Shown here in pieces: positions 19,676 to 44,378 of a stretch of 64,000 nt of DNA. The DNA comes from Parietichytrium sp. I65-24A (lineage: Eukaryota > Sar > Bigyra > Thraustochytrida > Thraustochytriidae), in NCBI GenBank assembly GCA_012862575.1, contig BLSF01000029.1, forward strand, positions 248,001 to 312,000, read 5' to 3'. The stretch's first letter is position 1; each line of letters opens with the position of its first letter. Both the position numbers and the translations under genes were made by a program. The notes below the pieces were generated by a model that had not been told where the DNA came from, ran no database searches, and saw only the letters and a list, made by a program, of their open reading frames with translations.

Positions 19676-19829
19676 GGGCCGTTGGAAGAGTGCGTGGCGG
19701 ATCGATTAGAGGTGCATGCCGCGCTTGGTATTACCAAGCCTTCACCCTCTCCTAACAGTGAGTAGTCGGCAAACAATAAGCGCACAAGGGCATCAAAGCG
19801 TTTTCGCTGAGCGAGTGCCTGGTCAGAGC

Positions 19830-20129: not shown

Positions 20130-20196
20130 CTTCCTCAATAAAATCTTCAGGCAACGACCGACACTCGAGCACACCAGCTCACACCATGCATGATTC

Positions 20197-20212: not shown

Positions 20213-20532
20213 CGCGTGAGTGTACACGTATCGCACACATCTTTCGCTGACTGCGAGAGAGATCATTTTTTTCCCGCCTAACTGAACCTACCTTCCCCTC
20301 ACTACCGCTAGCTACTGCTTTCGTGAACAATTCCTTGATCGAGAACAGCCTCCCATTCCAATCTTGCGTTCCGCACCGCGACCACACAATAGCTCGCTCC
20401 TCCCAGTACTTCCAGTCAACAAAGCAGCCTCCCTCAGTGAAAAAGCACCACAGTCCCCACAGTCCCCACAGTTCCCACAGTAAAAGAGTCCGCGCGTACG
20501 CCCACACACCCACAAGCAAACGCAGCTCAAGA

Positions 20533-21462: not shown

Positions 21463-21843
21463 GGAGGAAGGAGGCTTGGTTTCGTTGGACTGTGCATGTG
21501 CATGTGCATGTGCATGTGCATGTGCATGTGCATGTGCATGTGCATGTGCATGTGCATTTTGAAAAGCGTCTGGGAAGCTTTGCTCCTTGGTGCGGTCCGT
21601 CACGATCCCCAAGCGCGCACAGAAGAAGGGTCGGTGAGCCCTTTTTGCATCTCTCGCATCTTTCTTCGGCTTGTGATCTCTGCCGGCCGTGTGCGGTGCC
21701 GCAGACCAAAGTCTTTTCGTTGAACATGCAGTTTGTAAGTAAATGATCAATGTTTACAGAGAAATCTCTCTACTAGCTACTAGTACGACAAAGGCGTTGT
21801 CTTCCCCCCTGAAAAGACGCCGCCGCCTCACCTGCTTGCCGCA
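21463..21843. other. Convergent 3' spacer with hexanucleotide repeat
   Basis: 381 bp holding the 3' UTRs of the convergent Mtr3 and carboxypeptidase genes. The only notable content is the TGTGCA array at 21491-21557. Confidence 0.6.
21491..21557. repeat. (TGTGCA)n hexanucleotide microsatellite
   Basis: Eleven near-perfect hexamer units, 29 bp after the Mtr3 stop codon and thus probably in its 3' UTR. The unit is related by period, not by sequence, to the coding AATGCN array 300 bp upstream. Confidence 0.9.
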
Positions 21844-27276: not shown

Positions 27277-30200
27277 TTATCTGAGGTTCTCCAGCTGCTG
27301 CTGGACCTTTTCGAGCTCGGCTCGAAGCTGCTCTACATCGGCTACACGATCATCAGTCGCACTCTCGTCCCCATCGCTCATGTACTGACTGTCATCGTCG
27401 CCTTGGAGAGCAAGTTGCAGATTTAGCTGCTGCATCTTAAGATTGAGCGCCCGTCGTTGCGAAAAGCGCCATTGACTCACGTCAACGCTCTCCTCCTCCT
27501 CGCCGTCCAGCTCGAGATCCCCCAGATTCCCATCGTTGCTGCCAAGCTCGCTAGTCTTGTCTTCATCTTTGGCATCAACTTCTACAAGCTCTCCCTCGAC
27601 ACTTGCGTCGTCGTTGCCAATTGGAAGATCCTCGACGTCCACAAATATTGGTTCCTCCCCATTCCTGGCAGTTTCATCACCGTATCGCATCGAAAGAGAC
27701 CGATTTAGAAACAAATCATGCGGTGTTGACGTTTGGTGCAGGTGGCTGCGAGTTTCCAAATCAGCGATAGAGGAGCCGTATGCAGCTTGCGGCCGTTGGC
27801 TCAAGAGCGCCTGTCTTGCTTTCAAAGACTTGTCGAGGTCCTGCATGCAAGCGTCCATTTTAAATTGATACGAAGATGGGTCGTCAGCCTCCGCCACAGT
27901 TCCCCACATTGTCCCACTTGCGCCCTCTTCCTCAAATAGCGGTGCAACATTTATCGCGTAGTTGTCTACATGGCGCACTGGACTCTCTATTACATGTCTC
28001 TGGTGCTCCAGGTAGACTAGATTGTTTGCCTGTTTGACAATATCTTGAAACCTCTCCTCAAGATTGTCTTTGCGAACTTGGAGTGCTCGTAGTCTTGTGC
28101 GGGCTGCTTCAAGCTCCGACTCCCCCGGAACGTCGCGCAATCCGTCCAAGAAAATGGCCACGTCTTTGCACAGCTCGCTTAAGCTTCCCGAAATCTGCAA
28201 CGTGAGCTCCCCGTACATCATTGGAGTCAGAATTGCTGATAATCGCTCGAGCCGAGTCATCGTGGCTTGCGAACTTTGTAAAATTGTCTCGCCCTGGATG
28301 GTGATGGAGTCTAATTGTACCTGAATAAGGTCGTCTCTCATGTCACCACCGTTTTCCTCGCTGGGCTGTTGTTTCGCAGAAGAACCCGTTTGCTGCTCTT
28401 CAACGATCCGAGACAACTGAGATGATGGGCCCAAGCGCTTCTGGGCTTGATCATCATCTTCACCTAAAGTTTCGCTTTCTCCGCTCTCCATAGGACCCGA
28501 CGCCTCCCTGCCGTCAGACATTTGGCCACCAGAGGCGTCGTCATCTACGATGTGGTCTTCGTCAAACTCCATCACCGTCTCCTTAGCCAAGATCGACTGA
28601 GCCATAGCCTCGCGCGCTGAGCGTGCGCGCGCAATTAAAAGTGGCGTCAACATTTGCAGCTCGCCTATCGGCGAAGCCGGTCCCACACTCTTCGAAAGTG
28701 TCGCGGGGCTTGACGGGTTGCTGCTATTTTCCGAACACCTTTTCCGTGATGGAGTTCCAAAGTGCTTCTCTTGCGATGAATGTAGAGTGGGAGGCTCCTC
28801 GTGAACAAGATTCCACTTAGCTTCGAGCGATTGCCGAGTCTGCTCTGCGCGCTGGTCAATCTCTGCAAGACGGGCTTCAAAGTCGCGCTCCATTCGCTCC
28901 CGGGCATCCTCTAGCGCCTTACTCTGTGCTTCGAGTTGATTTTTCCGAGTGACAATGTCCCTTTCTACCAGACGCTTTTCTTTTCGTATTTCTTGGACTG
29001 CTTCAATCAAAAGCTGCTTTATCTCTAGTTCTTGTGGAAGCGGAGCTTGGTCATCTTTTTCAATTGAAGGAATTTGCTGCTGTAAAGTATCCACAATCTT
29101 CTCGTCCCGCTGAATTGACGTTGCCCTCTCGGCTTGAATTTGGTCCCACTCGTCACGCATCCGTTTGCGGATCTCGTCCCTCTCCTTGTCGAAATCGGCT
29201 CGTTCTTGGACCTGCTTTTCCTGGAGCTGCTTTCGTTCGACCTCTACCTGAGCAAGCGCTTCTCGAAGCTGATTTTCAAGCGAGTCTCGCGCGGCATCTC
29301 TTTGTGCAACGCGCTCCATATTTACACGAGCGCCCTCTGTTTCGCGACCGCTCTCCTTAATGACCTCGTTCAAACGTTTGAACACAGCATCTTCTGTTTG
29401 CTGGTGTACGCGAGCAAGCTCTTCTTGCATCTTGCTCAGTTCAATTTGCTGCTTTCGAGCAAGCTCACGAGTTTGGTCCTCCAACGTCTTCTCCATGCTC
29501 TGTTGAGCCCTCTCCAATTCCTCCAAGTCGCTTTTCCAGCCGTCCTCTTGCTTTTTACGCAACGATAGCAGGTTCTCAATCAGCTCTCGAGCAACAGTCG
29601 AGTCAACAAACTGGTTTGGCTGAACCTGTAATTGTTGTTGTTGCTGCTGCCCTCTTGAGGCATCAGAAAATCTAGCCTCTAGTTGGTGGACATACTGCTT
29701 CAGTTTTTTGGCTACAGTCTCCGAAGCCTCCAAGTCTTTTGACCTTTGCTGTTTGTGTGCCCTCCATCGTTCGGCCAAGCGATTGTCCTCCACTTTGAGT
29801 TTTATTTCCACTCGACTGATCTCTGCCTCGCGCTTTTGCAAACTAGATTGCTTGGCCCTCAATTGCTTCTCCTTTTCCTCGAAACTTGCCTTCCTGCTCT
29901 CAAGCTCTCTGGTTCTCGCATCGCATTTCCGACGCTCCCGGTCCAGAACGACGGCTTTACCGTCCAACGACTTTGCCATGGCTTCGATTTTCTTGCGCTG
30001 CTTCTCCAGCTGCTTTGCTTTCGACCGAAGCGCGCTCGCTGCCTCGCGTAGCTCGATCCTGATTTCTGTGTGATGCTGGACTCGTTTAAGTTGTTGCTCT
30101 TTAGCAGCTACCTTTGACTTCGACTCCGTGCTCGACTGTCGAATGTGCACAGCATTTATCCGCTCATTTTCTTGCGCCAGGTGGCCGAACAGAGCCTTGA

Positions 30201-33200
30201 GCCGTTCCTCTTGGGATGCGATTTCAGCTTCTCGGGAAGCTAGCTGTGAGGCTAGCTGTTCCAGCTTGGCCCCTTCGGCCAATAATTGGCCCCGTTTGCT
30301 TGCCAACGCCGATTCCTCTCTTTGAAGATCCAAACTTGCAGATGCTTGGTTCTGAGCAAGACTCGAGGCAAGTTGATCATTTGAGGCCTCCTGCTCAAAG
30401 AGTTTGGCTTCCCGTTTCTCTTGCGCCTTGTGCATCCGCTCAAGCTCCAGTTTCTCGTTCGCGAAGGCTCGCTGTTCGAGGTCCATCTGGGCCCGCATGT
30501 CCGCAACTTCGTGTTTTGCTTTATCGAGGGTCAGCCTCTCCTCTCGCAGTCTATCTTCTAAATTTTTCAGGTCTCGCTGTTTCTCTTGAATCTGCTCCTT
30601 GACCAATTTCGCTTCTTGTTGCTCCTTTAAAAGCTCAAGTCGAGCCTCGCCAAGTTTTTTCCGCTCTGCCTCTATCTCTCCAAGCTTGCTATGATACTCT
30701 CCGAATGTCTTGTCCGAGATTGTCGCAGTTTGCTCCAGTCGCTTGACCTGTTCTTGTTTATCGGACTGTAGCTGATCAAGATGCTCTCGAAGAGCACTCA
30801 CCCGATCTTTCTCTAGCAGTAGCTCGCGAAGCGTCCGACTAGCTTCTTCTTGCAAAGATTTTTGCTCGGTTTCCCAGGTCGCGCAGTGCTCTCGGAACTG
30901 TTCTTGCTGCTTCAAAAATTCGAGCTTGGAAGAATTGAAGCTATCTTCCCGTGCACGTAGAGCATTCTCTCTGTCGTTGAGCTCTGCATCGCGTTGCTCC
31001 ACAGTGGAGCGAAGCCTCGACACCTCGTCTTGCTCTCGTTGGACTTTATTTCTCTTTTCCTCCACAGAGCCTAGCATGGACTCGGCTTCTTTGAATTTTG
31101 CCGTAGCATCTTCTTCAAGTTTAAGCAGTGTTTTCTCAGCTTCTGCGAGCTGTTCCGCCTTCTCCGCCAACCGCCTCTGTTCAGCCGAGAGATTGGCATC
31201 CTTTTGCTGAAGAGATTCCTTATTTGCCTCAAGACGTTTCTGTGCAACTCCATAGGACGCGGCATGTTTTTCCAACTCTTTACAGTCTGCCTCAAGCCGC
31301 CGTCTCCTGGCTTGTATTTCTTTGTTGTACGCCACGAATTCCGCACGCAGCGACTTCAAGCTTGAAAGCTTTTGCATAAAGTGAGCCTCGGCCTCTTCCG
31401 CATTTTGCTGCGCCTCTTTCGCGTCAGCTTTGGCCTGTAAAGCTTGCTGTATTGTAGCTTTGGCCTCATCAATTTGTTTCGAGTGCTCCGCGAGAGACTT
31501 TTGCTCCAGGGCGTTTCGAATACTTGTTGACTTGGCTTCTTCCAGCATAGTGTTCAACTGTCGCCTGTCTTTAACAACTTGCAAAGCTTGATGTTCCAGA
31601 TCTTTTGCACGGTCCTCGAGCGCAGACTCGCTAATACGCAAGACTTGTTTTTTTTCCGCCTCAGCCCTGTAGGACTTTACCTGATCCTCAAGTTTCTTGA
31701 TTTGAGATTCAAGCTCCGCGACGGTTCCTTTCTCCGTTTTCCAAAGTGCCTTCTCGCTTGCAAATGCTTCCCTTTCAAACTTGAGATCGTTTTGACCCAT
31801 CTCAAGCTTTAGTTGCTCCTCTCGCACCTGTACATGCACGGACTGCAAATTTCGTAACGACCGTTCCCGAGAGGACAAATTGGCCTCTGCAGCTTCGCAT
31901 TGGCGCATTCGGGATTCGGCGTCGTGAGCTGTTTTAAGAAGCTCAACTTGTTTAACTTCCATGCGTTGCCGTTCAGCCTCGACCCTGCCTTCCCACTCCC
32001 TCCACGATCGCTCCAGGCTTGCCCTTGCAGCTTGCTCTTGTTGTTGTTGTCTCGCTTCTTTTGCCGCGAGATTAGCTTCTTTCTCCTGAACCTCGCGCAT
32101 TCTAGAGTCAATATCTGCACGAGTCTGCAGATCACTTTCAGCACGGCGCTTCGCCCTCTCGCTTTCGAGTTGCAGCTCTCGGTGGATTTGCTCAGCCTGA
32201 GCGAGTCTGTGCTCAACAGCTCGCTCTCGCTCTCTAACGAGGTCCAATTTGTCTTGTAGCTCCTGCTGCGCTTCGTCAATGCGTCTTGTTTCCGCTGCGA
32301 GCTGAGATCGCGCGACTTGATCGCGTGCTCTGCTTTGTTCAATATCATTAGCGAGCCCGTCTAGTCGTTCTAGCTCGAGCTGCTTTGACTCGGCCTGCGC
32401 TACTTTGCGATCCACGGACTTTTCTCTCTTCACTAAGGCGGCATTCCGCTCCGCTAGAGCGACACGTTCTTGCTGTAGATCCTCGCGTGCCTGATCCAGC
32501 TCTGTTTGCAGACTTTCCAAGGCTTTGGCCCGGCCCAGATGCTCCTGTACGTAGGCAAGCTTGTGCTCAAGGTCAAGACGCCTGGCTTCCAAATCTTGGG
32601 ACATCTGCAGTTGTGCATCTTGACAGCTCTCCAGCTGCTTCTGTAGTCCAAGGATGGACTCGACTTGATGGGATCTACGATCAAGCTCTTGCCGCTGAAG
32701 CTCTAAGTCACGGGCAAGCTGTTTTACTTTCTCGCGATCATGTTCAAGCTCTGCTTTGCTGGCGGAAACCTGACCTTCGAGACGGTCAAGGCTTTGCAGT
32801 CGCTCAATTTGTGCGTGCATACTTTTCAGCTGATCTCGAAGCCGGGTCTCCTCCTGCGCGAGCTGTTTCGTCCGCTCAAGAGCCGCACTCTCTCGCTCCA
32901 GAATCTCCACTTCTAGAGCCCGCTGAGCCCTGCTCAATACCCCAGTGGACGCGCCCTTCTCTCCAGCATTCGAAAATGCTGACACCGCCGCAGCTTTTGC
33001 TCTGGCGTGGTTTATTTTCCCTTCCCCGCCACCCTTGGTTTCCGCCTTACAAGCTGCAGCAGGAGGCATTGGCGGCGATTCGGAGGACGACAGAGACGCA
33101 GAAGAGGTCGATGATGTTGACGATGACGATGACGACACGGACAAGTGCCGGTCACTTTCCTTCTTGTGCATGAGCGCCGCTCTCACGCTCGCCTTCGCGC

Positions 33201-33216
33201 GGCCCAACCCGTCCAT
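27277..33216 (-). CDS. Giant coiled-coil protein (1979 residues)
   Basis: A single exon from the ATG at 33214-33216. Residues 1-75 are Ser-rich and basic. Residues ~85-1480 are almost unbroken Glu/Gln/Lys/Arg/Leu heptad-type sequence with few Pro or Gly, i.e. a long coiled coil, with one low-complexity Gln run near 1193-1200. The C-terminal 500 residues include a less charged segment (SPIGELQMLTPLLIARARSA), then acidic stretches and a final short coiled coil (VADVEQLRAELEKVQQQLEN). No ATPase head, kinesin motor, GRIP or other named domain is visible. Long rods of this type serve in the cytoskeleton, Golgi tethers, nuclear lamina-like or centrosomal structures; which one applies here is unknown. 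It shares a 1.1-kb divergent spacer with the ankyrin gene. Confidence 0.8.
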   Translation of the reverse strand: MDGLGRAKASVRAALMHKKESDRHLSVSSSSSSTSSTSSASLSSSESPPMPPAAACKAETKGGGEGKINHARAKAAAVSAFSNAGEKGASTGVLSRAQRALEVEILERESAALERTKQLAQEETRLRDQLKSMHAQIERLQSLDRLEGQVSASKAELEHDREKVKQLARDLELQRQELDRRSHQVESILGLQKQLESCQDAQLQMSQDLEARRLDLEHKLAYVQEHLGRAKALESLQTELDQAREDLQQERVALAERNAALVKREKSVDRKVAQAESKQLELERLDGLANDIEQSRARDQVARSQLAAETRRIDEAQQELQDKLDLVRERERAVEHRLAQAEQIHRELQLESERAKRRAESDLQTRADIDSRMREVQEKEANLAAKEARQQQQEQAARASLERSWREWEGRVEAERQRMEVKQVELLKTAHDAESRMRQCEAAEANLSSRERSLRNLQSVHVQVREEQLKLEMGQNDLKFEREAFASEKALWKTEKGTVAELESQIKKLEDQVKSYRAEAEKKQVLRISESALEDRAKDLEHQALQVVKDRRQLNTMLEEAKSTSIRNALEQKSLAEHSKQIDEAKATIQQALQAKADAKEAQQNAEEAEAHFMQKLSSLKSLRAEFVAYNKEIQARRRRLEADCKELEKHAASYGVAQKRLEANKESLQQKDANLSAEQRRLAEKAEQLAEAEKTLLKLEEDATAKFKEAESMLGSVEEKRNKVQREQDEVSRLRSTVEQRDAELNDRENALRAREDSFNSSKLEFLKQQEQFREHCATWETEQKSLQEEASRTLRELLLEKDRVSALREHLDQLQSDKQEQVKRLEQTATISDKTFGEYHSKLGEIEAERKKLGEARLELLKEQQEAKLVKEQIQEKQRDLKNLEDRLREERLTLDKAKHEVADMRAQMDLEQRAFANEKLELERMHKAQEKREAKLFEQEASNDQLASSLAQNQASASLDLQREESALASKRGQLLAEGAKLEQLASQLASREAEIASQEERLKALFGHLAQENERINAVHIRQSSTESKSKVAAKEQQLKRVQHHTEIRIELREAASALRSKAKQLEKQRKKIEAMAKSLDGKAVVLDRERRKCDARTRELESRKASFEEKEKQLRAKQSSLQKREAEISRVEIKLKVEDNRLAERWRAHKQQRSKDLEASETVAKKLKQYVHQLEARFSDASRGQQQQQQLQVQPNQFVDSTVARELIENLLSLRKKQEDGWKSDLEELERAQQSMEKTLEDQTRELARKQQIELSKMQEELARVHQQTEDAVFKRLNEVIKESGRETEGARVNMERVAQRDAARDSLENQLREALAQVEVERKQLQEKQVQERADFDKERDEIRKRMRDEWDQIQAERATSIQRDEKIVDTLQQQIPSIEKDDQAPLPQELEIKQLLIEAVQEIRKEKRLVERDIVTRKNQLEAQSKALEDARERMERDFEARLAEIDQRAEQTRQSLEAKWNLVHEEPPTLHSSQEKHFGTPSRKRCSENSSNPSSPATLSKSVGPASPIGELQMLTPLLIARARSAREAMAQSILAKETVMEFDEDHIVDDDASGGQMSDGREASGPMESGESETLGEDDDQAQKRLGPSSQLSRIVEEQQTGSSAKQQPSEENGGDMRDDLIQVQLDSITIQGETILQSSQATMTRLERLSAILTPMMYGELTLQISGSLSELCKDVAIFLDGLRDVPGESELEAARTRLRALQVRKDNLEERFQDIVKQANNLVYLEHQRHVIESPVRHVDNYAINVAPLFEEEGASGTMWGTVAEADDPSSYQFKMDACMQDLDKSLKARQALLSQRPQAAYGSSIADLETRSHLHQTSTPHDLFLNRSLSMRYGDETARNGEEPIFVDVEDLPIGNDDASVEGELVEVDAKDEDKTSELGSNDGNLGDLELDGEEEESVDVSQWRFSQRRALNLKMQQLNLQLALQGDDDSQYMSDGDESATDDRVADVEQLRAELEKVQQQLENLR

Positions 33217-34320
33217 CTGCCGCGTTCCTTGCTAGTGCATCCGAGGGTGTGATTCGAACCAAGCAACAACCCTTCTCACAACCTACAACTCACAACTCAC
33301 AACACACAAGTCGCCAGTCACAACTATTCACAACTCACAAGATGTTGCTTTTGCAACACGCAAGCTTCCAGCAGTGCTCTCGCAGTTCCCCACGCAGCGC
33401 TTTCCAGTCCCACAGATGATACTAGCCGGGTTGTTAGGGTGAATTGTTTATCGTGATACGCGGTTCAGTTCCACGGTCAATGAGTATCAAGGAAATCAAG
33501 GAGTCCTAATGAGTCATAATGAGTCCATCTAGTCAATGAATGGGACTGGTTGGGTTCCGCAGTTCCGAAAATATTTGAAATGGTCAACATCCGAATTCCG
33601 CAATTCGGCGCGAGATGTCTGCACGGACTTCTCCGTCTACGTTTTTCAGTAATCCCGAGATTATAAAAATGTCCATTAAATAGTAGTAAGATAGCTGTAG
33701 GTGATTTCATTTATCCGGTCACGAGTCAGGAAGTTGGAGTTCAACTTTTCATTCATGAGCATAATTACTTGATAGTCAAAAGGTGCAGAACATTTTCTTG
33801 GCACAAAGCATGCAAATGAATGGATTCTGAATGAATGATGGAGACGGTTTGTTGGCAGCGAGCACATTTACCGAAACGTTGGAGAGCACATGACAGACAC
33901 AAGTGGCGAAGTGGCGAGGCTCTGATGCGCCAGTAAACGAAAGTTCGGGCCATTGAATTCTGAAATTCTAATCGTTGCGCCGATGTCAGTTTGGCGCAAG
34001 TGAGACTGTTGATTGATGGGGTCGTTCGCGAAATTGAGTCGACTTTGTCCCAAAGTTCAAAGTTCAAAGTTCGAAGGTGTGGAGTTTGGGCTTGGCCTTA
34101 TTTGTGTGTGCTTCATTCAGTCGCAAGGCTTTCACGCTTTCCTTCGTCAGTCAATCGTCATCATTCAATTGCTCTAGTTCATCATACTCTGAACTCTGGT
34201 ATTCTGGTGTAGCAGACAGGGTGAGACGAAAGCTCAACGAGTCGTTCGTTATCGGTGGCGTTCCCAAGAAAGGCAAAGTCGGCAGTGCTCGAAGACAAGT
34301 CGTGGCAAGGCGGAGGGAAG
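33217..34320. other. Divergent spacer, no gene
   Basis: 1.1 kb between the divergent coiled-coil and ankyrin genes. ACAACTCACAA-type repeats occupy 33280-33345, and CAAAGTT repeats three times near 34052-34072. The ankyrin frame is open from about 34255 but lacks an ATG before 34321. A GGTTCGAATCA word (33248-33258, minus) resembles a pol III B box but has no tRNA around it. Confidence 0.5.
33280..33345. repeat. ACAACTC-type short tandem repeat
   Basis: Imperfect repeats of CACAACT/CACAAG in the leader region of the coiled-coil gene. Confidence 0.7.
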
Positions 34321-36747
34321 ATGGGCTACGGGTCTCGGCGAAGGGCTCGCAAAAGCTGGTCAGAAAGCGATGATTCTTGCAGCGAAGAGGACGAGACCAA
34401 GTCGGGCGCAGAGAGCGAAGAGGAAAAGTCGGATGACGAAGATGATGACTACTTGGAAAGACTCATCGCTGGGGGGACCACGCGTAGGCCGGCGACATTG
34501 AGAGGAAGAGATTCCATGCGAGGAATGAGCAACAATTTGATATCGACGGTACTCGGAAGCTGTGATCCGAATGACTTGAGTCAATTTACGACGGCGGAGC
34601 TCATTTCCAGCTCAGATAACCAAGGCAGGACAGCCCTTCATCTGGCTTTGTTGGGAGACAATCTGGATCTTGTTGAAGAGATTTTGCGAAGAGTACTTGA
34701 GGACGTGCGGAGACTCATCTCGGAGAGCCGTCGGAAAAAGCATCGCCTCGATCTCAGTGTTAAGCGGCAAATGCAGCTCTACTCTACTTGGAAGGAAGAT
34801 CACAAGCATTTCGAGGAGTTCAGAATTGAGACCGAGCGAGAAGTACTCGCCGCTCAAGAGAGCGCGATTGTAAAGTTGTACTCCAAATCAGACAAGGAAG
34901 GCTGGACCGCTTTGCACTTTGCCTCGCAAGGATGCACTGGATCAATGTCGAGGCTCCTTAGATGCTTACCTGCGCTGCGCTCCAGTCAGGCATTGGGCCC
35001 CTCAGAGATGAAAGAAATGCTCCAGATTCGACGAGAAATCCTGAGTGCCCAAAATTCCACCGGATGCACACCGCTTCACATCGCAGCCAGTAATGGAAAT
35101 AGTGAGGCAATCCATATGTTGATCGATGGAGGCGCAGATCGTTTTGCGGCAAATCTTGACGGTGAATCTCCGATGGATGTAGCCCGAGACAAAATAATTA
35201 GGAGAGTGCTGGCCAAAGGTCTCGTGAAGGAGATCTGCGATGGTGTCAAGAATTCGTTAAAGTCTTTCGAGATTAGAGCGGAGCTCGGGGAAGGGCTTGA
35301 TGAGCGGGGCGGCTTAACATTTCAATCTGCTCTGCATCAGGCATGCGAACGGGGCAATCTCGAGCTTGTAAAGTACATTTTGATTCAGGACCATACTTTG
35401 GTGCACTCTGTGGACGGGCTGGGATGGTCAGCACTCCATTATAGTGCAAAAATGTCGAAGCCAGGAAATTACGCTGTCATGGACGAGCTTCTTGGCTGCG
35501 GGGCAGACGCAAACCAAACTACATCATCTGGATTAAGTGCGTTGCACGTTCTTGCTAAAGAGGGATCTGGCTCACAGGGGAGTGAAATGGCAAAGTTACT
35601 TTTGAGAAAAGGGGCAGATATCGATGCGAAAACACCTAGCGGCAAGAGCGCGTTTTTGATTGCAGCGAAAGCGGGATCGGCAAGCATGGTGCAGTGTCTC
35701 GCCCGGGCTGGGTGCGACATTTATTCTACTGACAAGAGACACTGGAACGCGCTGCACTTGGCCTGCTTTTACGAAAATATGGATGTAGCCGTCTTTCTCA
35801 GCCGAATGGACTCAGAAACTAGCAAGCTGAAGCAAATGCGCAACTTGGCCAATAAGATTCCTAGTGACTTTATGTGTCAATCTTGGAGGGAGAAAAGTGC
35901 GCTTTTGACTTTGTGGGAACTTGCTGCAATGAAACAACTTGATGAGCTTCGCCTTGCAATTCGCTCGATGAGAGGTAGCGGCAGCATGCACGCCCCTGAT
36001 TCCTCCGTGAACGCTCCCAGCGTTGTCTCCAAGTTTACTCCTCTTCACGCCGCGGTGCTTGGCCCTTTCATGAAGCATCTGTCAAAGTCGGGCCCCAAGC
36101 TGGCGGCGCAGGTGCGAACGCACTTGGAGTCTAAACTTCGAGTTCGCCAGTCCTCGCAGCGAAAGCAGAGCAAGAGTACTCGTGCGCAAGTTGTCAAATT
36201 TCTACTTGCGCAAAAAGAAGTATTTGTGGACGCATCGGACATTCGCGGCTGCACAGCTTTGATGTACGCATGCATGCTCGGAGAGCAAGAGATAGTCGAC
36301 TTGCTTTTAGAACGAGGCGCAGACACCAACTCCGCGGACAAGAATGGGAATACAGCCCTTCATTATGCATACGCCTTTGGAATGAGTAAGGTCTTGCAAC
36401 TGAGCGACCGTTTTGACGAAGAGGCACAGAACTCGAGTGGGCATACTGCACTTGAGGTCGCTGGTGCAGCAGGCTCCACTTTTCGAATGCCAAATGCTCG
36501 GAGAATGGGCCCTTTTGTTTCCCATTTGGGTGAAAATGTCAGCGATAGCGACGAGGAGACTTCAGAGTCCAAGGAGGAGGACGACACATTGCTCAAGAAT
36601 GCGAAAACTTTACAACAAGTCGCCCAAGCGATGGACTCGGAGGATGGACACTACAACGGCGGCAAAACTCTGCAAGATGTTGCCGACGACGAGTGTCGAC
36701 CCAGTGCTCGGACTGCCTTAAGGGCAGCTGCGCAAGAAGTACAGTAG
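34321..36747 (+). CDS. Ankyrin-repeat protein
   Basis: 808 residues from the ATG at 34321 (ATGGGCTACGG); the upstream in-frame extension has no ATG. An Arg/Ser head and an acidic tract (~20-45) precede at least ten ankyrin-type repeats, for example GRTALHLALLGDNLDLVEEI, GWTALHFASQG, GCTPLHIAASNGNSEAIHML, GWSALHYSA, GLSALHVLAKEG, HWNALHLACFYENMDVAVFL, GCTALMYACMLGEQEIVDLL and GNTALHYAYAFG. An insertion of about 90 residues (near 560-640) with RVRQSSQRKQSKSTR basic sequence splits the array. There is no kinase, DHHC, channel or SOCS domain, so a scaffold role is the most that can be inferred. The C-terminal ~70 residues are acidic. Cytosolic or nuclear location is likely. Confidence 0.87.
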   Translation: MGYGSRRRARKSWSESDDSCSEEDETKSGAESEEEKSDDEDDDYLERLIAGGTTRRPATLRGRDSMRGMSNNLISTVLGSCDPNDLSQFTTAELISSSDNQGRTALHLALLGDNLDLVEEILRRVLEDVRRLISESRRKKHRLDLSVKRQMQLYSTWKEDHKHFEEFRIETEREVLAAQESAIVKLYSKSDKEGWTALHFASQGCTGSMSRLLRCLPALRSSQALGPSEMKEMLQIRREILSAQNSTGCTPLHIAASNGNSEAIHMLIDGGADRFAANLDGESPMDVARDKIIRRVLAKGLVKEICDGVKNSLKSFEIRAELGEGLDERGGLTFQSALHQACERGNLELVKYILIQDHTLVHSVDGLGWSALHYSAKMSKPGNYAVMDELLGCGADANQTTSSGLSALHVLAKEGSGSQGSEMAKLLLRKGADIDAKTPSGKSAFLIAAKAGSASMVQCLARAGCDIYSTDKRHWNALHLACFYENMDVAVFLSRMDSETSKLKQMRNLANKIPSDFMCQSWREKSALLTLWELAAMKQLDELRLAIRSMRGSGSMHAPDSSVNAPSVVSKFTPLHAAVLGPFMKHLSKSGPKLAAQVRTHLESKLRVRQSSQRKQSKSTRAQVVKFLLAQKEVFVDASDIRGCTALMYACMLGEQEIVDLLLERGADTNSADKNGNTALHYAYAFGMSKVLQLSDRFDEEAQNSSGHTALEVAGAAGSTFRMPNARRMGPFVSHLGENVSDSDEETSESKEEDDTLLKNAKTLQQVAQAMDSEDGHYNGGKTLQDVADDECRPSARTALRAAAQEVQ

Positions 36748-37531
36748 CTTGGTCTCATCAGATGGGGCCAACTTGGAGATTGCAAATCTCTTTTCCTCTT
36801 CCTCTGAATCGGTAAGCACGCGTATTGGAGGATAATTTAGCCATCGCAATCCAATCACATCCAATCACACATCCAATCACTGAAATTTATTACCCTTTTT
36901 TTATGAAATTTTGTTCTCGCTTGTCTGTGGTATGTTGAGGACTCTAATATCATTCTCAAGAAGGCTACTTAGCAAGAGTCAAATTGCAAACGCTTTGGAA
37001 TGCAGAATTCACTGTCAGTAATCATTTTGATTCACATTCCAAAATGAGCACATGGCTGGACACTGCGAAGCAAGGTCTACCGGCGAAAGCTCCACCGGTT
37101 TGACGAACCTCCCGTACCTCCCGTACCTCCCGTACCTCCCGTTCGCGGTTCTCGCTTGATTGTAGATAACCTCAAGTTTAAAAAGCGACATCACGATGTG
37201 GATTTCGGATAGCGGAACCCTTTAAATTTCCGATTTTAGGATCAAGATGCTGATTTTTCTCAATTTCACGTATTTTCGCCTCGTCCGTTGGGCCTTGATT
37301 AAGAACGGAGACTCAAGAGGATTTAAGCACTGAAATTCAGGAGTATTCAAGAGAAATTGGTTATATTTTTGAATTTGATCGTGTCACGTGTGCAGGCTTT
37401 GAAGGCGCGGGGAGAGCTTGAAACGGAAGTGGTACGAAAACGCATAATCTTGTGAGGGAGCGATCACTGTTCACTGTGTTCCAAACTTAGGACTTATCGT
37501 GCACCTACTAGGTTTCGGCACCAAAAGAGTC
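36748..37531. other. Upstream flank of the transposase gene
   Basis: 784 bp between the ankyrin stop and the transposase ATG. It holds a nine-bp inverted repeat TTTGGAATG/CATTCCAAA (~36994 and ~37036), four units of CCTCCCGTA (37108-37142) and several TTAA sites (37178, 37222, 37299, 37323), any of which could be the left end of a piggyBac-type element. I could not match a terminal inverted repeat with the right flank by eye. Confidence 0.45.
37108..37142. repeat. CCTCCCGTA tandem repeat (four units)
   Basis: Three perfect 9-bp units and a fourth degenerate one (CCTCCCGTT), about 390 bp upstream of the transposase ATG. PiggyBac elements can carry subterminal repeats, so it may belong to the element. 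Confidence 0.7.
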
Positions 37532-40500
37532 ATGGGAAGGGCAGGGTGGAGCGCAAGAGAACCTTCGGAAGGAAAGGAGGCGGAGGGGCCACTGGAGAGA
37601 GACGAGGTTCAAGTATTGTCTGATGTTGAGTGCACGTTGTGCCTTCAAAAGGGCCATGCCGATGCAAGGAGTCCTTTGTGCGGTTTACGTGGGGTTGGCC
37701 TCTCTGCGCAACAAAAGCGTGCACTTCGAAAAGGAGGAAGTCCTATGGTTGATTTGACTTCTGCTCAACAGCAACCGAAGAGGGAGAAGAGAGAGTTTCA
37801 CCAAGAATGGCAAAGGCGCAAAGAAGAACAACCAGAAATTTTGTCTCGCGCAGAAGCGAATCAGTTGTGTAAGATCGATGAACGCTCGAAACTACATGTC
37901 AGCCACATAGCAGGCAAGTTGAAGTCAGCTTGGAAGGAGGTGGACTCTTCTGAGTCTGTACAGGAGTCTCCTCTGTCCGAATTGAACTTCTTTGACTTGG
38001 TTGTGGGACCTGCGCGAGAGAACATTCGAAAATGGACCAATATCAAGATCCGCCAACACTTCCAAGGAGTGAAGCCCGTTGCGCCGTGGGAGTTCGACGC
38101 ATTTATGGGTCAGCTTCTGATAGTCCTGTTGTCCTCGCTTAGAAAAGAGACTTGCTTGGATCTTGCCGCTCCGTATCTGGCGCTGAACCTTGGAATAGAC
38201 ATATCCACAAGGCTGAGCATAACCCGATTCAACCAGATTCAAGCTGCGTTCTCGGGCTTCAGGCCGCGTGACGAGGCCACTGCAACGTCGCATGCTGACA
38301 CCGACCCTTCAAAGGACTTTGAAGAGCTTGACAAGAACTTGAGCGCCTTCATTCTCCGTGTCGTGCCAAACAAGTACATTCGGATCACCATTGATGACCG
38401 CAACTGTGGGACGGTCTCTGCGATGAATCCCAAGAAGACGTATCGGCCGAGAAAGGCTCATCAGCATGGGGCCGGATCCGACTCTGCTGCTGACTCAACG
38501 CTGCGTTTTGTGCTCATGAATGTGCTGTATCCTATGGATTACAGTCAAAAGCAAGTTTTGGAAAGCATTCTCTCCAAGTTGAAAGATTCTATGATTGACG
38601 TACAAGGGGTAGAGGTATGTCTGGATCGAGGCTATCCGAGTGTGGAGCTCTACAGTTGCTGTGCAAAGTACGGCTTCTCTTTGATCACCATCAACGACAA
38701 GAACAAGCAACAAGGGAATCCGTTTGTTGCAAAGTCTGTACTTGCCGAGCGGCCAGCTAAATACACGGAGAGGAAATGGGCAGTGAATGGTGCATATGTC
38801 AACTTCAAGAAGCCCTTTATTGTCGATGACGACCCGCAAATGGGAGCGCAGATATTCTCTGCGTCTAGGAGCATGTCGAAAAATACTGGAAGAACTGTAA
38901 GTGCTCGCGCTTACGCCGTTCGCGAGCACGGAGACGGCAAGCGAACTTTTGTGCATCGCTTCGTAGTCATGTTAAGTGACGAGCTCATGGACGCCTTTGG
39001 CCGCAATTTCGTCATGGAGCCTTACCCACGGGCGAGAGCCGAGGCAACGTCGTGGTGGCTCTTTTATCCGAAGAAAGTCACAGGAGCAAACGCTCCAGTC
39101 GACGCGGAAGAAGACGGCGGCGAGGAAGTGGCCGGCGCTGTCGAGGATGAGGACAAAGACAACAATCAGAGCGACGAGGAGTACAAGGACGGAGAGGAAA
39201 TGCCGATCAGCAGTGATGACGATGAGGGGAACACTCAAGAAGTTTTAAGTTTAGATGCCGGAGACGAAAGTCACGACGATGATGAGGACTCCGATATTGC
39301 CAATGAGTCTGACTCCAGCGCTGTGAGCGACAACAACGAGAGCGACTTCCTTGACAAGAGTAGCATGCTGGCCAACGACGCAGGTGCATTTTGGAGAGAT
39401 CTTGATGGTGACGAGAATCGCGACGACATGAAGCTTCGTGAAGAGATGGACGGCCAAGTGCTGCAATCATTGAAAGACGGCAACGGACCTAAGGCTCTTG
39501 AACTTCTGGAAAAGAGCCTGAAGTCTGACGTGGAGCCACTCACTGCTGGCCAGCGCTGTGCTGATTGGTTTATCTTTCGCCAATTTATGGTGACAGGGAC
39601 AACCGGCCAGGAGATTGCCTCGAAGGACCCTTTAGTACGAAGATTGCTCTACGAGGATCCAACCAAGGGGAACACGGCACCGATCTCTGAGAAGGAGATT
39701 GCTTGTAAGCTTTTCCAGACATGGTTTCATACACCGAGAACGCTTGGTAGCCAGGCAAATCGGGCAATGGTGATTGGGTCTCGGAACGAGGATGGCGTGG
39801 TGCAAGAGCTGCGCAAGAGGTCATACGTGAAAGCAGTGTATACCATTGGTCTCGTTCAGTCTAAGCGCGATCGACATCTCGGCGTCAGCGCTGATAACAT
39901 AATCGTCATCGATGCACCAAACGGAGAGACCATCATAGCACCGCTGGAGATCAAAACCAAAGTGAAGCCTCGCACACTGGATCCTCCAACAAAAATTGCC
40001 CACAAGTTTGGCACCTACTTTGAGTGCACGGCTGGCTCAAAGCTTTGGTTTCAGGCCATTCCGCAAGAATATCGAGGGCAGTTAATTCATCAAGCGGCGG
40101 TCTTTAACCGCGAGACAGCAGTCTATTGTGTTTCAAGCGAGGTTAGCCTTTTGCACGTCACTATCGTTCGGTTTACAAGGAGTCAATTGAAGGCCTGGGT
40201 TAACGCATTCGCAAAAGTGAGGGACATGCTGAGCTGGGCGTGGAATGCTGTTGACGACAACACCGTCCCAAAGGGATCCTCTATTCCTGGAGTATGGGAT
40301 GAGCCCCAGAGAGCTGTCATCAAATCAAGATTACCAATCTGGCAAGCATTGCATCGCAAACGACTGGCTGTTGGCGTCCTACAACCGGTTCGGTTAATTC
40401 GATCACTCGTGCAGTTTTACTACAGCAAGGGAAAACAAGGGGTTGACGGTGTTGACGAATACCAGAGCTCCTTCCAGACGCGCGCACTTAATGTGTCCTG

Positions 40501-41164
40501 GGAGGTGAAAGTGACCATAAGCCGACTTGTAGACGCGTGTATCAACGCCGGGTTATTGTGGAGAATTTACAAACTGTATGATCTCTGCGGGGATCATTGG
40601 CAAGGTCTTGACTGGTTTCGAAACCGATGCAGTCGATATCTCGCCATGACAGACTTTTGCATCAGAGTGGCTTTCCAGCTTTTACAAAATGCTGATAGGT
40701 TGAGATCTTCCATGGGTGAGAACCTGGTAGTAACTCCGATTTACGAAGGCGAGGATACCAATCGAGACCTGGGGGATACCAAACGAATGCTCGACAACGA
40801 AGAGCATTCTCAGGCACTGAGTTACCTTTGCAAGAGGAAAAAGGACAAACTAGTGCGAGCAAATGAACCCCTCGCAAAACGAATGAGGCTTTCTGCAAAT
40901 AAGCACAACAAGGTCATTGCGCGTTCTAATCGTGTCTGCGTCGTTTGCGGTCTAACGACCCCTGCTCAGTGCAGCTTTTGCCAGGAAGCTATGCATGTGC
41001 GGCCTGCATTTTCGTTGCAGACGCAAAGTTATGAGACCTGCTGGGACAAATGGCACACGATGGATGTTTTACCTCTGAAAAGGACCCCGAAGAAACCGAA
41101 AAAGAAAAAGGACCAAAGCGCGGATTCTGCAAGTGAGCACTCAAGCGATTCTGCACTTCTCTGA
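37532..41164 (+). CDS. PiggyBac-type transposase with a YqaJ-like nuclease domain nested in its DDE core
   Basis: 1210 residues from the ATG at 37532, uninterrupted. Residues ~150-295 match the piggyBac N-terminal region (FFDLVVGPARENIRKWTN) and end KYIRITIDDRNCG, first catalytic Asp D288. VEVCLDRGYPSVELYSCCAK gives the second, D365. An acidic linker (~525-620) leads into a YqaJ/lambda-exonuclease-like domain (~673-895): FRQFMVTGTTGQEI, VIGSRNEDGVVQEL (E753), GVSADN (D788), PLEIKTK (E806, K808) and YRGQLIHQAAVFNRETAVYC. The piggyBac fold then resumes at YYSKGKQGVDGVDEYQS, with D972/D975, then WEVKVTISRLVDACINAGLL. The end carries C-x2-C-x7-C-x2-C-x4-H-x14-C-x4-H, like the piggyBac Cys-rich DNA-binding tail, then a Lys-rich segment. 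PiggyBac enzymes cut and paste at TTAA. It is a plain DNA transposon gene or a domesticated one; all catalytic residues are present. Confidence 0.92.
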   Translation: MGRAGWSAREPSEGKEAEGPLERDEVQVLSDVECTLCLQKGHADARSPLCGLRGVGLSAQQKRALRKGGSPMVDLTSAQQQPKREKREFHQEWQRRKEEQPEILSRAEANQLCKIDERSKLHVSHIAGKLKSAWKEVDSSESVQESPLSELNFFDLVVGPARENIRKWTNIKIRQHFQGVKPVAPWEFDAFMGQLLIVLLSSLRKETCLDLAAPYLALNLGIDISTRLSITRFNQIQAAFSGFRPRDEATATSHADTDPSKDFEELDKNLSAFILRVVPNKYIRITIDDRNCGTVSAMNPKKTYRPRKAHQHGAGSDSAADSTLRFVLMNVLYPMDYSQKQVLESILSKLKDSMIDVQGVEVCLDRGYPSVELYSCCAKYGFSLITINDKNKQQGNPFVAKSVLAERPAKYTERKWAVNGAYVNFKKPFIVDDDPQMGAQIFSASRSMSKNTGRTVSARAYAVREHGDGKRTFVHRFVVMLSDELMDAFGRNFVMEPYPRARAEATSWWLFYPKKVTGANAPVDAEEDGGEEVAGAVEDEDKDNNQSDEEYKDGEEMPISSDDDEGNTQEVLSLDAGDESHDDDEDSDIANESDSSAVSDNNESDFLDKSSMLANDAGAFWRDLDGDENRDDMKLREEMDGQVLQSLKDGNGPKALELLEKSLKSDVEPLTAGQRCADWFIFRQFMVTGTTGQEIASKDPLVRRLLYEDPTKGNTAPISEKEIACKLFQTWFHTPRTLGSQANRAMVIGSRNEDGVVQELRKRSYVKAVYTIGLVQSKRDRHLGVSADNIIVIDAPNGETIIAPLEIKTKVKPRTLDPPTKIAHKFGTYFECTAGSKLWFQAIPQEYRGQLIHQAAVFNRETAVYCVSSEVSLLHVTIVRFTRSQLKAWVNAFAKVRDMLSWAWNAVDDNTVPKGSSIPGVWDEPQRAVIKSRLPIWQALHRKRLAVGVLQPVRLIRSLVQFYYSKGKQGVDGVDEYQSSFQTRALNVSWEVKVTISRLVDACINAGLLWRIYKLYDLCGDHWQGLDWFRNRCSRYLAMTDFCIRVAFQLLQNADRLRSSMGENLVVTPIYEGEDTNRDLGDTKRMLDNEEHSQALSYLCKRKKDKLVRANEPLAKRMRLSANKHNKVIARSNRVCVVCGLTTPAQCSFCQEAMHVRPAFSLQTQSYETCWDKWHTMDVLPLKRTPKKPKKKKDQSADSASEHSSDSALL
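39548..40213 (+). other. Nested YqaJ-like PD-(D/E)XK nuclease domain
   Basis: This is the segment of the transposase gene encoding the inserted nuclease. Codons for the catalytic set are at 39788 (Glu), 39893 (Asp), 39947 (Glu) and 39953 (Lys). It sits between the second (38624) and third (40445) DDE Asp codons. YqaJ proteins are 5'-3' exonucleases related to lambda exonuclease. Several eukaryotic DNA transposon groups (ISL2EU, from memory) carry YqaJ as a companion protein, but not inside a piggyBac catalytic core as far as I know. Confidence 0.85.
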
Positions 41165-42056
41165 GATGATTTCGCATTGAAAAATAAACAAACAAGCAAT
41201 TTCTCGAGTCGACGTAATAATTTCTCCTATCAAGACTTCTTATTTGCGTGATTATCATTAAAGTTATACATTCAATGTATACTTGACTGAATACTTTCTC
41301 TCCAAGTTGGATCGGATCAGAGGTCTTAACAGCTCCTATACTTTTGTTTATACAAAATCAAAATTTTAATTTCGATTCCTTGCACACCCGACCAAAATCA
41401 ACTTCTTCCATAGCTTACTATTTACTAACGATAATTCTTAAGAATATTTTTTTCGACATCATGATTTCGAGAATGAAAATCCTGAGGATAATGCTAAGAC
41501 AGTCTTGAAAGTCTTGAACGACAACAATGTGTAAAACAGCATTTTGTGGGAATTACCATAACACTCGACTGACCCTCGGCGTGGAGAAGACTTGCAAGCA
41601 AGGGACGCAGTCTAGTAGGTGTTCGAAGAAAAACTATCAAAATTGATACGATCAGCTATATTTAAAACGCACAAGCGTACAGGTCAATCTTCAAAACGAG
41701 TCTGAGGGATGAAAATAAATTCATTCTTCCACAGGAATGCAGTACAAGGTGGGCACGGCATATCAAATTGCACATGACATCCATTCAATCGAGCTGGCCA
41801 TAGCCATGCAAAAGTTCAAACACCAAAACGTCATAGACCCCGTCAATCGAAGTGCTACTGAGTTCTGGTTGCGTGTGCCACATATGCATTGTTGCATCGG
41901 GCCCCACAAAACTAACCACTTGGACAAGTGGACAGCAATATACAAGTGGACAGCAATATATAATACCACACAAAGAGGTGAACAATGGAATCAACGGCAC
42001 CCAGCAGGATCCACCGGCCACACAAAACATACGGATCACGCATCAAAGTGAGGTGC
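41165..42056. other. Downstream flank of the transposase gene
   Basis: 892 AT-rich bp between the transposase stop and the 3' end of the convergent AP2 gene. TTAA sites at 41258, 41326, 41366, 41438 and 41681 are candidate right ends of the element. A perfect 18-bp tandem repeat (41924-41959) lies close to the AP2 gene. An open frame at 41737-42051 (+) has no recognisable content. Confidence 0.45.
41924..41959. repeat. 18-bp perfect tandem duplication
   Basis: ACAAGTGGACAGCAATAT occurs twice in a row, in the 3' flank of the AP2 gene. Confidence 0.9.
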
Positions 42057-44378
42057 TCAGTGTCCCTCTTGAGCAGCTTGTGTGCCGTTGGATACGCCTG
42101 TATTCTGAGTTTTCCTTGACGCGGAGGAGGGGATGGATGAGGCGCCGTTTTCCGTGGCCACCTCACGCCTCAGATTGCTTGGGCTGCTTGGCGCACGGCG
42201 TTTGTGGCTCAGAGAAACTCTTCTCTGTAGCTCGGCGTCGTCATCGTTCTCCTCACTCGCGCTGGGGCTTCCTGATCCACTTCCACCAGATCCACTTCCT
42301 CGTGAGCCCCCTCCAGACCCGGACCCAGATCCAGAGCCCGACCCGCTCACTCCAGAGCGGCTTTCAGAAGGCGTCGAGTTTGAAACCAGAGTGCTCCCGG
42401 ACGCACCACTTTCGTTTCTAAACGACTCCAGCAACTTCTTTCGAACGGCGGGGTCAGGAAAATTCAAGGACTGGCTACTTTCGCCTTGCTGCAACAACCT
42501 AAGATCCACTGCAAGAGCGGCGCACATCTCAGAGGAATAAACTCCTAGGTGCTCACTCTTTCCGTTTACCCAAATTCTCGCAATCCACTTCTTCCCTCTC
42601 TTGTGCCAGGAAACCCCGCGATATTTCGAGCTGCGTTTTCTCTCTCTTCGATCAGCGTCTTTCTCTCCGTCCTGGCCCATGAATTGCTGGAACCCCATCG
42701 CAGGCATGGCATAGAACGCCGGTCCGGAGACGTTGCCACCGACCACACCTGGGTGGTGAGCATATACGACAGAGTAAGGTACTGAATTCACTGGACCCAT
42801 TGACACAGGGATATACTGCTGACCGCTTTGGGCGTAGACCGCAGGGGGGGCATACTGTATGGGTGGAGAGCTTGAGTTGCTTGGGGTGACGATACTGTTT
42901 GGGTTGGCGGGTATTTGCTGTACTGCTCCGTGGTATGTCTGGGGGCCCATAGCAGGAGAAACGGAAGGGTCATTTGAGGTGACGCTCGGGTTGTGGCCCA
43001 TGGAATTGTAACTAGAGTTTTGTGGGATATTGGGTGATGGACCGGAATTGGCAAAGGAAAGGTGCTCACCGTTCGAAGTTGGTGTAGGAGAGCTCATCGT
43101 CGGAATCCCATGGGAGCTATACATCTGACTCTGTCCTGCGTTTGAACCCGAGTTTGGGCCATTGGAGTTTGTCATCTTGTTCGTCCATTGCTGGTTCTGA
43201 GAGTTTCCGGGTATGTTGAGAGGGACTTGGTACGGTGCAAAACCCTGATGTTGCACGGAACTGTCCTGTTGCTGTCCTGCGTGTGAAGAGCCTTGGCCAC
43301 CAGCATTAAAGTGGCTTTGGCTGCCAATGCCATGAAGGTTGCTGTCTCTTGGAGTCTGCCCTTGCTGAGTGTTCCCTGACCCGTAGCCGTGTGGTGGTGC
43401 ACCACTATTGCTGCTATTGTTGGTGCTAGGGCCACCATTACCAGTGCTGTTGTTCCCCATGTACATGTTTGTCTGTGGTTGCATTTGCGGCACCCAAGGC
43501 TGATTGTTTTGGTTGGGGCTGGCATTCACGTTTCCGTGCATTCCAGAGATGTTTCCGTGGGCAAAGTTTCCACCCTGGTTCTGCCCATACATGTTTCCTT
43601 GGAAGTTCAAGTTTGAGGATGGCAGAATGCTAGGGTTTGAGGCAAAAGATCGATCTGGGCCAGATGTAGGGCCAAACCTGTTCGCGTTGCCGTTATTTTG
43701 CTGCCATACCATATTGCCGTCGTTAGATTGCTGATTTGGCGGCTGGCCATTACTCCCAGTTCCATATTGCGACGGTCCGCCATCGCGGGAACCGCTTTTT
43801 TGGTTCAAATTTGAATTGAAGTTGAGGGTCCCGCTATTGTTGACCATCGAATTGTGACCTGAACCCATGCCGTTGCCGACTACGGCAGGAAATCCACTCA
43901 CAACATTCCGTGACTGATCGTTCGAAGGCCCATTCGAACCGATGCTCGGATTTGTCATCATGCTTTGATTGCCGGCCTGATTTGTGCTGTTGTGGTTGCT
44001 GTTATTATTATTGTTGAGGAACATCTGATTCCATGCCTGGCCATGTGAAAGTACTGGAAGTTGCGTGCTGCCAGATGTGAACTTTTGCTCTTGGTCTGAA
44101 GGCTGGGAGTTTTGCGTCTGCGAGTTCTGGAGGAGGTTGTTATTATTGCTGTTGTACACGATCTGATTTGGCTGGTTTGGGTAGAATCCATAGCCGGAAG
44201 TGAAATTCTGCTGCGAAGGCCCGTTATTCCCGTAATTTTGAAGTTGTTGAGTGTTTGGTGGTTGAAGGGATGACAGCCCATGCTGAAATAGCTGAGTGGA
44301 AGGAACCTGGTGCAACCCATTTTGGTCACTTTGAGCACCAGATGGGCGATTCTTGCCAGAACCTTCCCCCTGCCCCAT
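42057..44378 (-). CDS. AP2/ERF-domain protein with long N/Q/S/G-rich region
   Basis: 773 residues from the ATG at 44376-44378. Residues 1-570 are Asn/Gln/Ser/Gly/Pro-rich and disordered, resembling transactivation or prion-like sequence. A single AP2 domain spans ~584-643: SSKYRGVSWHKRGKKWIARI, then HLGVYSSEMCAALAVDLRLL and SLNFP, with the usual YRG, W and A..A landmarks. A basic RRERKR stretch precedes it. The tail contains a (Ser-Gly)n run and an acidic patch. AP2 domains bind GC-rich DNA in plants, algae and apicomplexans, so this is most likely a nuclear transcription regulator. Only one AP2 domain is present and its targets are unknown. The transposase gene converges on it from the 3' side. 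Confidence 0.9.
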   Translation of the reverse strand: MGQGEGSGKNRPSGAQSDQNGLHQVPSTQLFQHGLSSLQPPNTQQLQNYGNNGPSQQNFTSGYGFYPNQPNQIVYNSNNNNLLQNSQTQNSQPSDQEQKFTSGSTQLPVLSHGQAWNQMFLNNNNNSNHNSTNQAGNQSMMTNPSIGSNGPSNDQSRNVVSGFPAVVGNGMGSGHNSMVNNSGTLNFNSNLNQKSGSRDGGPSQYGTGSNGQPPNQQSNDGNMVWQQNNGNANRFGPTSGPDRSFASNPSILPSSNLNFQGNMYGQNQGGNFAHGNISGMHGNVNASPNQNNQPWVPQMQPQTNMYMGNNSTGNGGPSTNNSSNSGAPPHGYGSGNTQQGQTPRDSNLHGIGSQSHFNAGGQGSSHAGQQQDSSVQHQGFAPYQVPLNIPGNSQNQQWTNKMTNSNGPNSGSNAGQSQMYSSHGIPTMSSPTPTSNGEHLSFANSGPSPNIPQNSSYNSMGHNPSVTSNDPSVSPAMGPQTYHGAVQQIPANPNSIVTPSNSSSPPIQYAPPAVYAQSGQQYIPVSMGPVNSVPYSVVYAHHPGVVGGNVSGPAFYAMPAMGFQQFMGQDGEKDADRRERKRSSKYRGVSWHKRGKKWIARIWVNGKSEHLGVYSSEMCAALAVDLRLLQQGESSQSLNFPDPAVRKKLLESFRNESGASGSTLVSNSTPSESRSGVSGSGSGSGSGSGGGSRGSGSGGSGSGSPSASEENDDDAELQRRVSLSHKRRAPSSPSNLRREVATENGASSIPSSASRKTQNTGVSNGTQAAQEGH

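Follow-up and report, generated by a model that had tools for sequence, protein, structure and literature searches.

DNA transposons that combine a transposase with an exonuclease have been described in several superfamilies. In Dada of Laccaria and Ectocarpus, a DEDDy exonuclease occupies the interval from the second catalytic Asp to the DxxH motif (PMC3706591). KolobokE comprises a DDD/E transposase with a C/DxxH signature and a PD-(D/E)xK lambda-exonuclease-like nuclease downstream of the transposase domain; Kolobok, with its lambda-exonuclease-bearing members, is present in rhodophytes (PMC9587614). ISL2EU encodes a YqaJ nuclease in a second open reading frame (ORF) beside a Harbinger-related DDE transposase and makes an AT target duplication (PMC4482050, PMC9179366). 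Teratorn is a piggyBac joined with a herpesvirus (PMC6431247). Here, we analyze a gene of the thraustochytrid Parietichytrium sp. I65-24A, located on the plus strand of a 64-kb stretch of contig BLSF01000029.1 (the window). In a single frame this gene very probably encodes, judged from its sequence, a piggyBac-like DDE transposase that is interrupted by a YqaJ/lambda-exonuclease domain and then continued.

Organization of the reading frame

The open stretch starts at a GTG codon (37499) and ends with a stop codon at 41162-41164, and its 1221 codons contain no in-frame stop, in agreement with an earlier sequence-only reading that had reported one uninterrupted frame. Residues are counted here from the GTG, which equals the ATG-based number plus 11. 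The residues that the earlier reading had named in ATG-based numbers (D288, D365, D972/D975, E753, D788, E806 and K808) were all found in place. Along the frame, the N-terminal half is piggyBac-like and carries the first Asp; after it come a second-Asp motif, an acidic linker, the YqaJ domain, the third-Asp block and a Cys/His cluster. The individual features are:

37532-41164, plus strand: single open frame, first ATG at 37532, 1210 codons plus stop
37631-37681, plus strand: N-terminal Cys/His cluster C-x2-C-x4-H-x7-C, aa 45-61, read from the translation
38015-38530, plus strand: piggyBac-like N-terminal region, aa 173-344, with IRKWTN, LSITRF and the first-Asp strand, by hhalign
38393-38395, plus strand: first catalytic Asp D299, aligned with D268 of Trichoplusia ni (T. 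ni) piggyBac, by hhalign
38624-38626, plus strand: candidate second catalytic Asp D376, by motif and spacing only
39149-39418, plus strand: acidic linker, about aa 551-640, by composition count
39548-40213, plus strand: YqaJ/lambda-exonuclease domain, about aa 684-905, by Pfam, PHROGs, alignment, hhalign and predicted fold
Within that domain, plus strand: YqaJ catalytic set E764, D799, E817 and K819, plus W690, R694, G760 and Q861, by alignment
40409-40555, plus strand: third-Asp block YYSKGKQGVDGVDEYQ...ACINAG, aa 971-1019, by hhalign
Within 40409-40555, plus strand: third catalytic Asp D983, aligned with T. ni D447, by hhalign
40937-41056, plus strand: C-terminal Cys/His cluster C-x2-C-x7-C-x2-C-x4-H-x14-C-x4-H, aa 1147-1186, by ligand pattern

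Counted in blocks of 50 residues, the acidic linker contains 46% Asp+Glu in block 551-600 and 30% in block 601-650. The N-terminal cluster, presumably a zinc-knuckle-like motif, was absent from the landmarks named in the earlier reading and may be an extra DNA-binding element of the transposase-exonuclease.

The nuclease domain

The YqaJ model of Pfam (PF09588) matched the whole protein with 22.3 bits, just over its cut-off of 22, and the piece aa 635-935 with 26.4 bits (E 9.5e-6). The same piece matched PHROG 434, RecE-like exonuclease (E 2.7e-8), and scored just under the cut-off of Viral_alk_exo (19 vs 20). For comparison, ten phage exonucleases were used, namely lambda and nine chosen among 40 listed matches of 339 records. 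Eight of the nine columns invariant in this set are kept (W690, R694, G760, E764, D799, E817, K819 and Q861), the ninth being Phe in the phage enzymes and L911 here, and 4 of the 12 columns common to nine of the ten are retained. Measured against 41 relatives from viral contigs, again 8/9 invariant columns are kept, the exception being a Ser replaced by T701, together with 7 of the 19 columns whose conservation among these sequences is at least 90%. As the invariant columns are kept but few of the lesser-conserved ones are, the catalytic set of the nuclease is complete, whereas the remainder of the domain has diverged strongly. A profile of the ten phage exonucleases aligned with the nuclease piece at P 7.6e-5 (hhalign score 37.1), a score reached by none of 200 shuffles of the piece (best 23.1).

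An AlphaFold2 model of the nuclease piece, computed from a 42-row alignment, reached a predicted local distance difference test (pLDDT) value of 78.4 and a predicted template modelling score (pTM) of 0.80. Its PDB matches at E <= 0.001 were lambda exonuclease or LHK-Exo in nine of nine cases. The 41 other rows of the alignment are the viral-contig relatives of phage exonucleases, hence the fold match is not independent of these and counts as support rather than as an independent discovery. We consider the YqaJ identity of the domain, deduced from its sequence, to be solid. The complete PD-(D/E)XK set with the Gln helix (Q861) that had been read from the letters is upheld by Pfam, PHROG and the invariant columns, and a YqaJ fold at residues ~673-895 of the ATG-based count by the predicted fold and the domain match. 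Viral fold matches include phages and giant viruses (Pandoravirus and Pithovirus; 50 of 60 matches at E <= 0.001 listed). Both match the predicted fold, and the nuclease may have come from a phage or from a giant virus.

The piggyBac-like flanks

A piggyBac profile (A1) was built from two solved enzymes, T. ni piggyBac (6x67) and piggyBat (9c0f). On the N-terminal side of the nuclease, aa 173-344 aligned with T. ni piggyBac 144-312 (hhalign P 0.0039), and the T. ni motifs IVKWTN, MSRDRF and LTIDE, the last including D268, are paired with IRKWTN, LSITRF and ITIDD, respectively. None of 200 shuffles reached the score of this region (29.9, best shuffle 26.4). On the C-terminal side, aa 971-1019 aligned with T. 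ni 435-483 (P 0.00067), where T. ni has YNQTKGGVDTLDQ and the window protein YYSKGKQGVDGVDEYQ. The third-Asp block was also recovered when the whole protein was the target (P 0.0023), and its score of 34.1 was likewise reached by 0/200 shuffles (best 23.0). For a tile test, the 25 stop-to-stop frames in the window with at least 271 residues were cut into 44 tiles, which were ranked against the profile. The two flank tiles came first and second (35.1 and 33.9), followed by the middle tile of the frame itself (23.3); the best tile from any other frame scored 19.9. Since both flanks lie above all shuffles and supply the top two tiles, their kinship to piggyBac is remote but real, with the halves flanking the nuclease in the right order.

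The candidate for the second catalytic Asp lies in the motif VCLDRGYPS. Its distance from the first Asp is 77 residues, compared with 78 in T. ni piggyBac (D268/D346) and 72 in piggyBat (D237/D309). From the second to the third Asp, by contrast, the distance is 607 residues vs 101 (T. ni) and 104 (piggyBat), which places about 500 extra residues at one position. The C-terminal Cys/His cluster has its ligand order in common with the Cys-rich domain (CRD) of piggyBat, including several equal spacings (C-x2-C, C-x2-C-x4-H and C-x4-H). A joint piggyBat/window pattern, which was drawn up after both sequences had been seen, occurred in 0/200,000 tail shuffles and in one of the 917 stop-to-stop frames of at least 40 residues in the window, namely this frame. 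The piggyBat CRD is described as not structurally homologous to that of T. ni (PMC11707139). The piggyBac landmarks that had been read in order along the frame hold by hhalign for the first Asp and the third-Asp block, the second Asp is placed by motif and spacing only, and the cluster is not recovered by profile but fits piggyBat in its ligand pattern.

A possible resection mechanism

After excision of a piggyBac element, the donor gap keeps 5' TTAA overhangs, which are 5'-phosphorylated and are normally ligated without a scar. Lambda exonuclease prefers a 5'-phosphate and digests the 5'-phosphorylated strand. During piggyBac excision a hairpin is formed on the excised transposon (PMC6900584). 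Combined, these properties suggest that in a joint enzyme the element ends would be spared and the donor gap resected. As in piggyBac, the DDD core would nick the ends of the element and close them into hairpins; these would offer no free 5' end to the nuclease, and the donor gap with its 5'-phosphorylated overhangs would be a good substrate for an enzyme of the lambda exonuclease type. Resection of the gap would then produce 3' tails and shift repair towards homologous recombination, for example with the sister chromatid. With the sister as template, the element would be regained at the donor site and its copy number would rise.

The explanation that we favor is a piggyBac-like transposase protein in which a YqaJ 5'-3' exonuclease and an acidic linker were inserted between the second and the third catalytic Asp, at the place of the insertion domain that follows the second Asp in piggyBac enzymes, and which would resect the donor gap; we give it about an even chance. 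The resection mechanism taken by itself we put forward tentatively, somewhat below that level. It is rather doubtful that the protein is a working transposase in which hairpin excision and resection by the exonuclease folded into its core occur within one complex, so that recombination-templated, amplifying repair takes the place of seamless cut-and-paste. The domain order is most naturally read as an exonuclease having been captured by the DDE core.

Counter-evidence and alternative explanations

Results at the level of profiles, structure and mobility weigh against the favored explanation. Of the two Pfam families proposed in the sequence-only reading, YqaJ was found, but DDE_Tnp_1_7 (PF13843) gave no match at E up to 10 on the complete protein or on any of the pieces searched, a range in which the HMMER filters drop most matches above about 0.1; the positive control, T. 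ni piggyBac, scored 8.7e-71. The second-Asp stretch is without profile signal, with 71/100 shuffles scoring as high, and for the C-terminal cluster 54/100 hhalign shuffles equalled the score against the piggyBac profile, which contains the T. ni CRD only. The nuclease model superposes moderately on lambda exonuclease (template modelling score 0.44-0.49 by query length and 0.57-0.65 by target, root-mean-square deviation 5.4-6.5).

A model of aa 142-1203 was obtained from an alignment of 37 rows, whose relatives cover the nuclease only. Its mean pLDDT was 51.2 and its pTM 0.47, with 634 of 1062 residues below 50; the nuclease was folded and most of the DDE parts were below 50. All nine PDB matches of this model at E <= 0.001 were exonucleases and none was a transposase. 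Given the low confidence of the DDE parts, the nesting is established along the sequence, not in space: of the proposed capture into the DDE loop, the domain order stands, and closure of the core around the nuclease is not resolved by the model. A question of symmetry is added by the quaternary structures. Lambda exonuclease works as a trimer ring, and the title of PDB entry 1avq calls it toroidal. Piggybat transposase (pBat) is described as a dimer whose hairpin 382-399 lies just downstream of the insertion domain and before D413 (PMC11707139). With a ring of three on one side and a dimer on the other, the two halves may not share symmetry.

Mobility is the point at which the strongest alternative enters, a domesticated or stranded piggyBac-like gene. 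In this explanation the protein would be either a single-copy host protein serving DNA repair, rearrangement or defence or a fossil that was immobilized recently, the ends being gone, and we assign the explanation an appreciable probability, clearly short of even. Among 25 TTAA pairs in 36301-37531 and 41151-42700, the best inverted repeat had 9/14 matches and none was convincing. A wider scan for terminal inverted repeats and target-site duplications gave seven candidates, just over the 0-6 found in 20 shuffles, and its best score was also reached by shuffles. A second copy of the gene was not found within the 64-kb window, and the locus lies between ordinary ORFs, encoding ankyrin repeats (34255-36747) and an AP2-like protein (42057-44378, below the Pfam cut-off). 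Against domestication it can be held that the copy search covered 64 kb and that short or diverged ends are easily missed. An imperfect inverted pair of 20 nt, 80% identical, does surround the frame (37351-37370 and 41186-41205); it has no adjoining TTAA and is probably due to chance. Hence, the gene may be immobile or domesticated. As convincing ends and a second copy in the window were not found, we speak of the protein as a piggyBac-like transposase and do not classify the locus as a piggyBac transposon.

An improbable alternative is that the nuclease fold has been kept as an enlarged insertion domain, which would bind ends or flanks without any resection in transposition. PiggyBac-family enzymes have an insertion domain in that part of the fold (PMC11707139), and insertion domains shape DNA in Hermes and RAG (PMC6900584). 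A purely structural role, however, would not need the exonuclease catalytic positions, all of which are kept.

It is very improbable that the DDE part belongs to another superfamily, either one with TTAA targets (Kolobok) or one with a nested exonuclease (Dada). The lambda-exonuclease members of Kolobok in rhodophytes and the nested nuclease of Dada speak for such an origin (PMC9587614, PMC3706591). A search for C/DxxH between the second and the third Asp, however, found one match, at aa 589 in the acidic tract. The third catalytic residue is an Asp, which as in piggyBac lies in a GVDxxD context, and in the comparison with T. ni piggyBac and piggyBat both flanks and the CRD resemble these enzymes.

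We give equally little weight to an artefact of the gene model or assembly, with two genes or an open intron behind the frame: the C part has a slightly lower third-position GC content (0.517 vs 0.56) and the source is a single genomic window, but no stop occurs over the frame, which continues unchanged from the nuclease into the third-Asp block and the CRD. Third-position GC content is fairly even overall (DDE-N 0.564, linker 0.562, YqaJ 0.559), and in the genomic sequence of 37499-41164 nothing points to a two-gene or intron model.

Searches for relatives

With the whole protein as query, viral contigs gave no pattern match and genome contigs gave 16, none of which was confirmed. The nuclease piece produced 10 pattern matches in viral contigs, again with none confirmed, and profile A1 produced 56 in viral contigs and 110 in genome contigs, with 0 confirmed in either. 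Among phages a single match was obtained, to Cygsa01 (E 0.9 with the whole protein, 0.2 with the nuclease piece); it was rejected as chance, since the annotated gene there is on the other strand. PF09588 was absent from the Cygsa01 record; the control genomes were positive in 2/14. In PDB sequences there was no match, either with the whole protein at E up to 1 or with the nuclease piece and the C piece at E up to 10; the one match of the N piece, to tachycitin (E 2.1), was dismissed as meaningless. NCBIfam gave sub-cut-off noise only on the protein.

Other features of the window

The window is eukaryotic, judging from the remaining genes (RAB3GAP2, ferric reductase, ankyrin repeats, C2H2 fingers and EF-hands), and no Rfam match was found in it. 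Two neighboring paralogues on the minus strand (10138-12660 and 14142-16436) are 78% identical over 840 columns. Both have a VWA-like domain, one just above and one just below the Pfam cut-off, RCC1 repeats, a signal-like N terminus as judged by eye, and a Ser-Pro-Thr linker that differs in length. Within 10138-12660, a tandem array at 11414-11623 (84-nt unit, 97% matches over 11426-11610) lies within the coding part of the longer linker and is a likely source of this difference. A C2H2 zinc-finger ORF on the plus strand (18716-19675) holds an 87-nt tandem array of 6.2 copies (18814-19357), and just 3' of it a 149-nt unit occurs twice with 95% matches (19824-20130). Directly past an RNase PH-like ORF (20323-21462) lies a perfect TGTGCA array of 11.2 copies (21491-21557). 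On the minus strand, 27277-33216 encodes 1979 residues with a coiled-coil look and no Pfam match at E 0.001.

Comparison with known systems

As a tool, piggyBac is valued for leaving no scar behind. If the favored explanation is true, a resecting nuclease in the core would show how cut-and-paste elements can control the repair of their own break, and cutting would be coupled to recombination in a system of one protein. In the open-licence literature searched, mostly titles and the beginnings of abstracts, with Repbase and supplements outside the scope, we found no description of a YqaJ nested in a piggyBac transposase. Within this literature the combination of YqaJ and a piggyBac-type core therefore appears new, and its components are precedented.

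The protein resembles T. ni piggyBac and piggyBat in its N-terminal motifs, first-Asp strand, D1-D2 spacing and GVDxxD third-Asp block, and piggyBat in the order of its C-terminal Cys/His ligands. It differs from piggyBac in the YqaJ-containing extra residues between the second and third Asp, in falling below Pfam detection and in having no convincing TTAA ends. With phage lambda exonuclease, LHK-Exo and the YqaJ proteins of giant viruses it shares the fold and the catalytic set, but those are stand-alone viral or phage-type proteins and have no transposase part.

In Teratorn, too, a piggyBac-like transposase is joined to foreign genes of viral origin; there whole elements are fused (41-182 kb), whereas here domains are combined within one protein. 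ISL2EU also pairs a eukaryotic DDE transposase with a YqaJ exonuclease, in a separate ORF rather than in the same frame. A lambda-exonuclease-type nuclease together with a DDD/E transposase is common to KolobokE and the window protein, but in the latter it precedes the third-Asp block and in KolobokE it lies downstream of the transposase domain. In Dada, as here, the exonuclease sits inside the DDE core after the second catalytic Asp; the Dada nuclease is DEDDy, DnaQ-like and 3'-5', in another DDE superfamily, whereas that of the window is a PD-(D/E)xK nuclease of the YqaJ type. Taken with Dada, KolobokE and ISL2EU, the Parietichytrium protein suggests repeated recruitment of exonucleases to DDE transposases, at differing positions, and it thereby becomes testable whether a transposase acts on the donor break once excision is over. 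Dada, KolobokE and ISL2EU provide precedents, in superfamilies other than piggyBac, for the type of nuclease as well as for where it is inserted.

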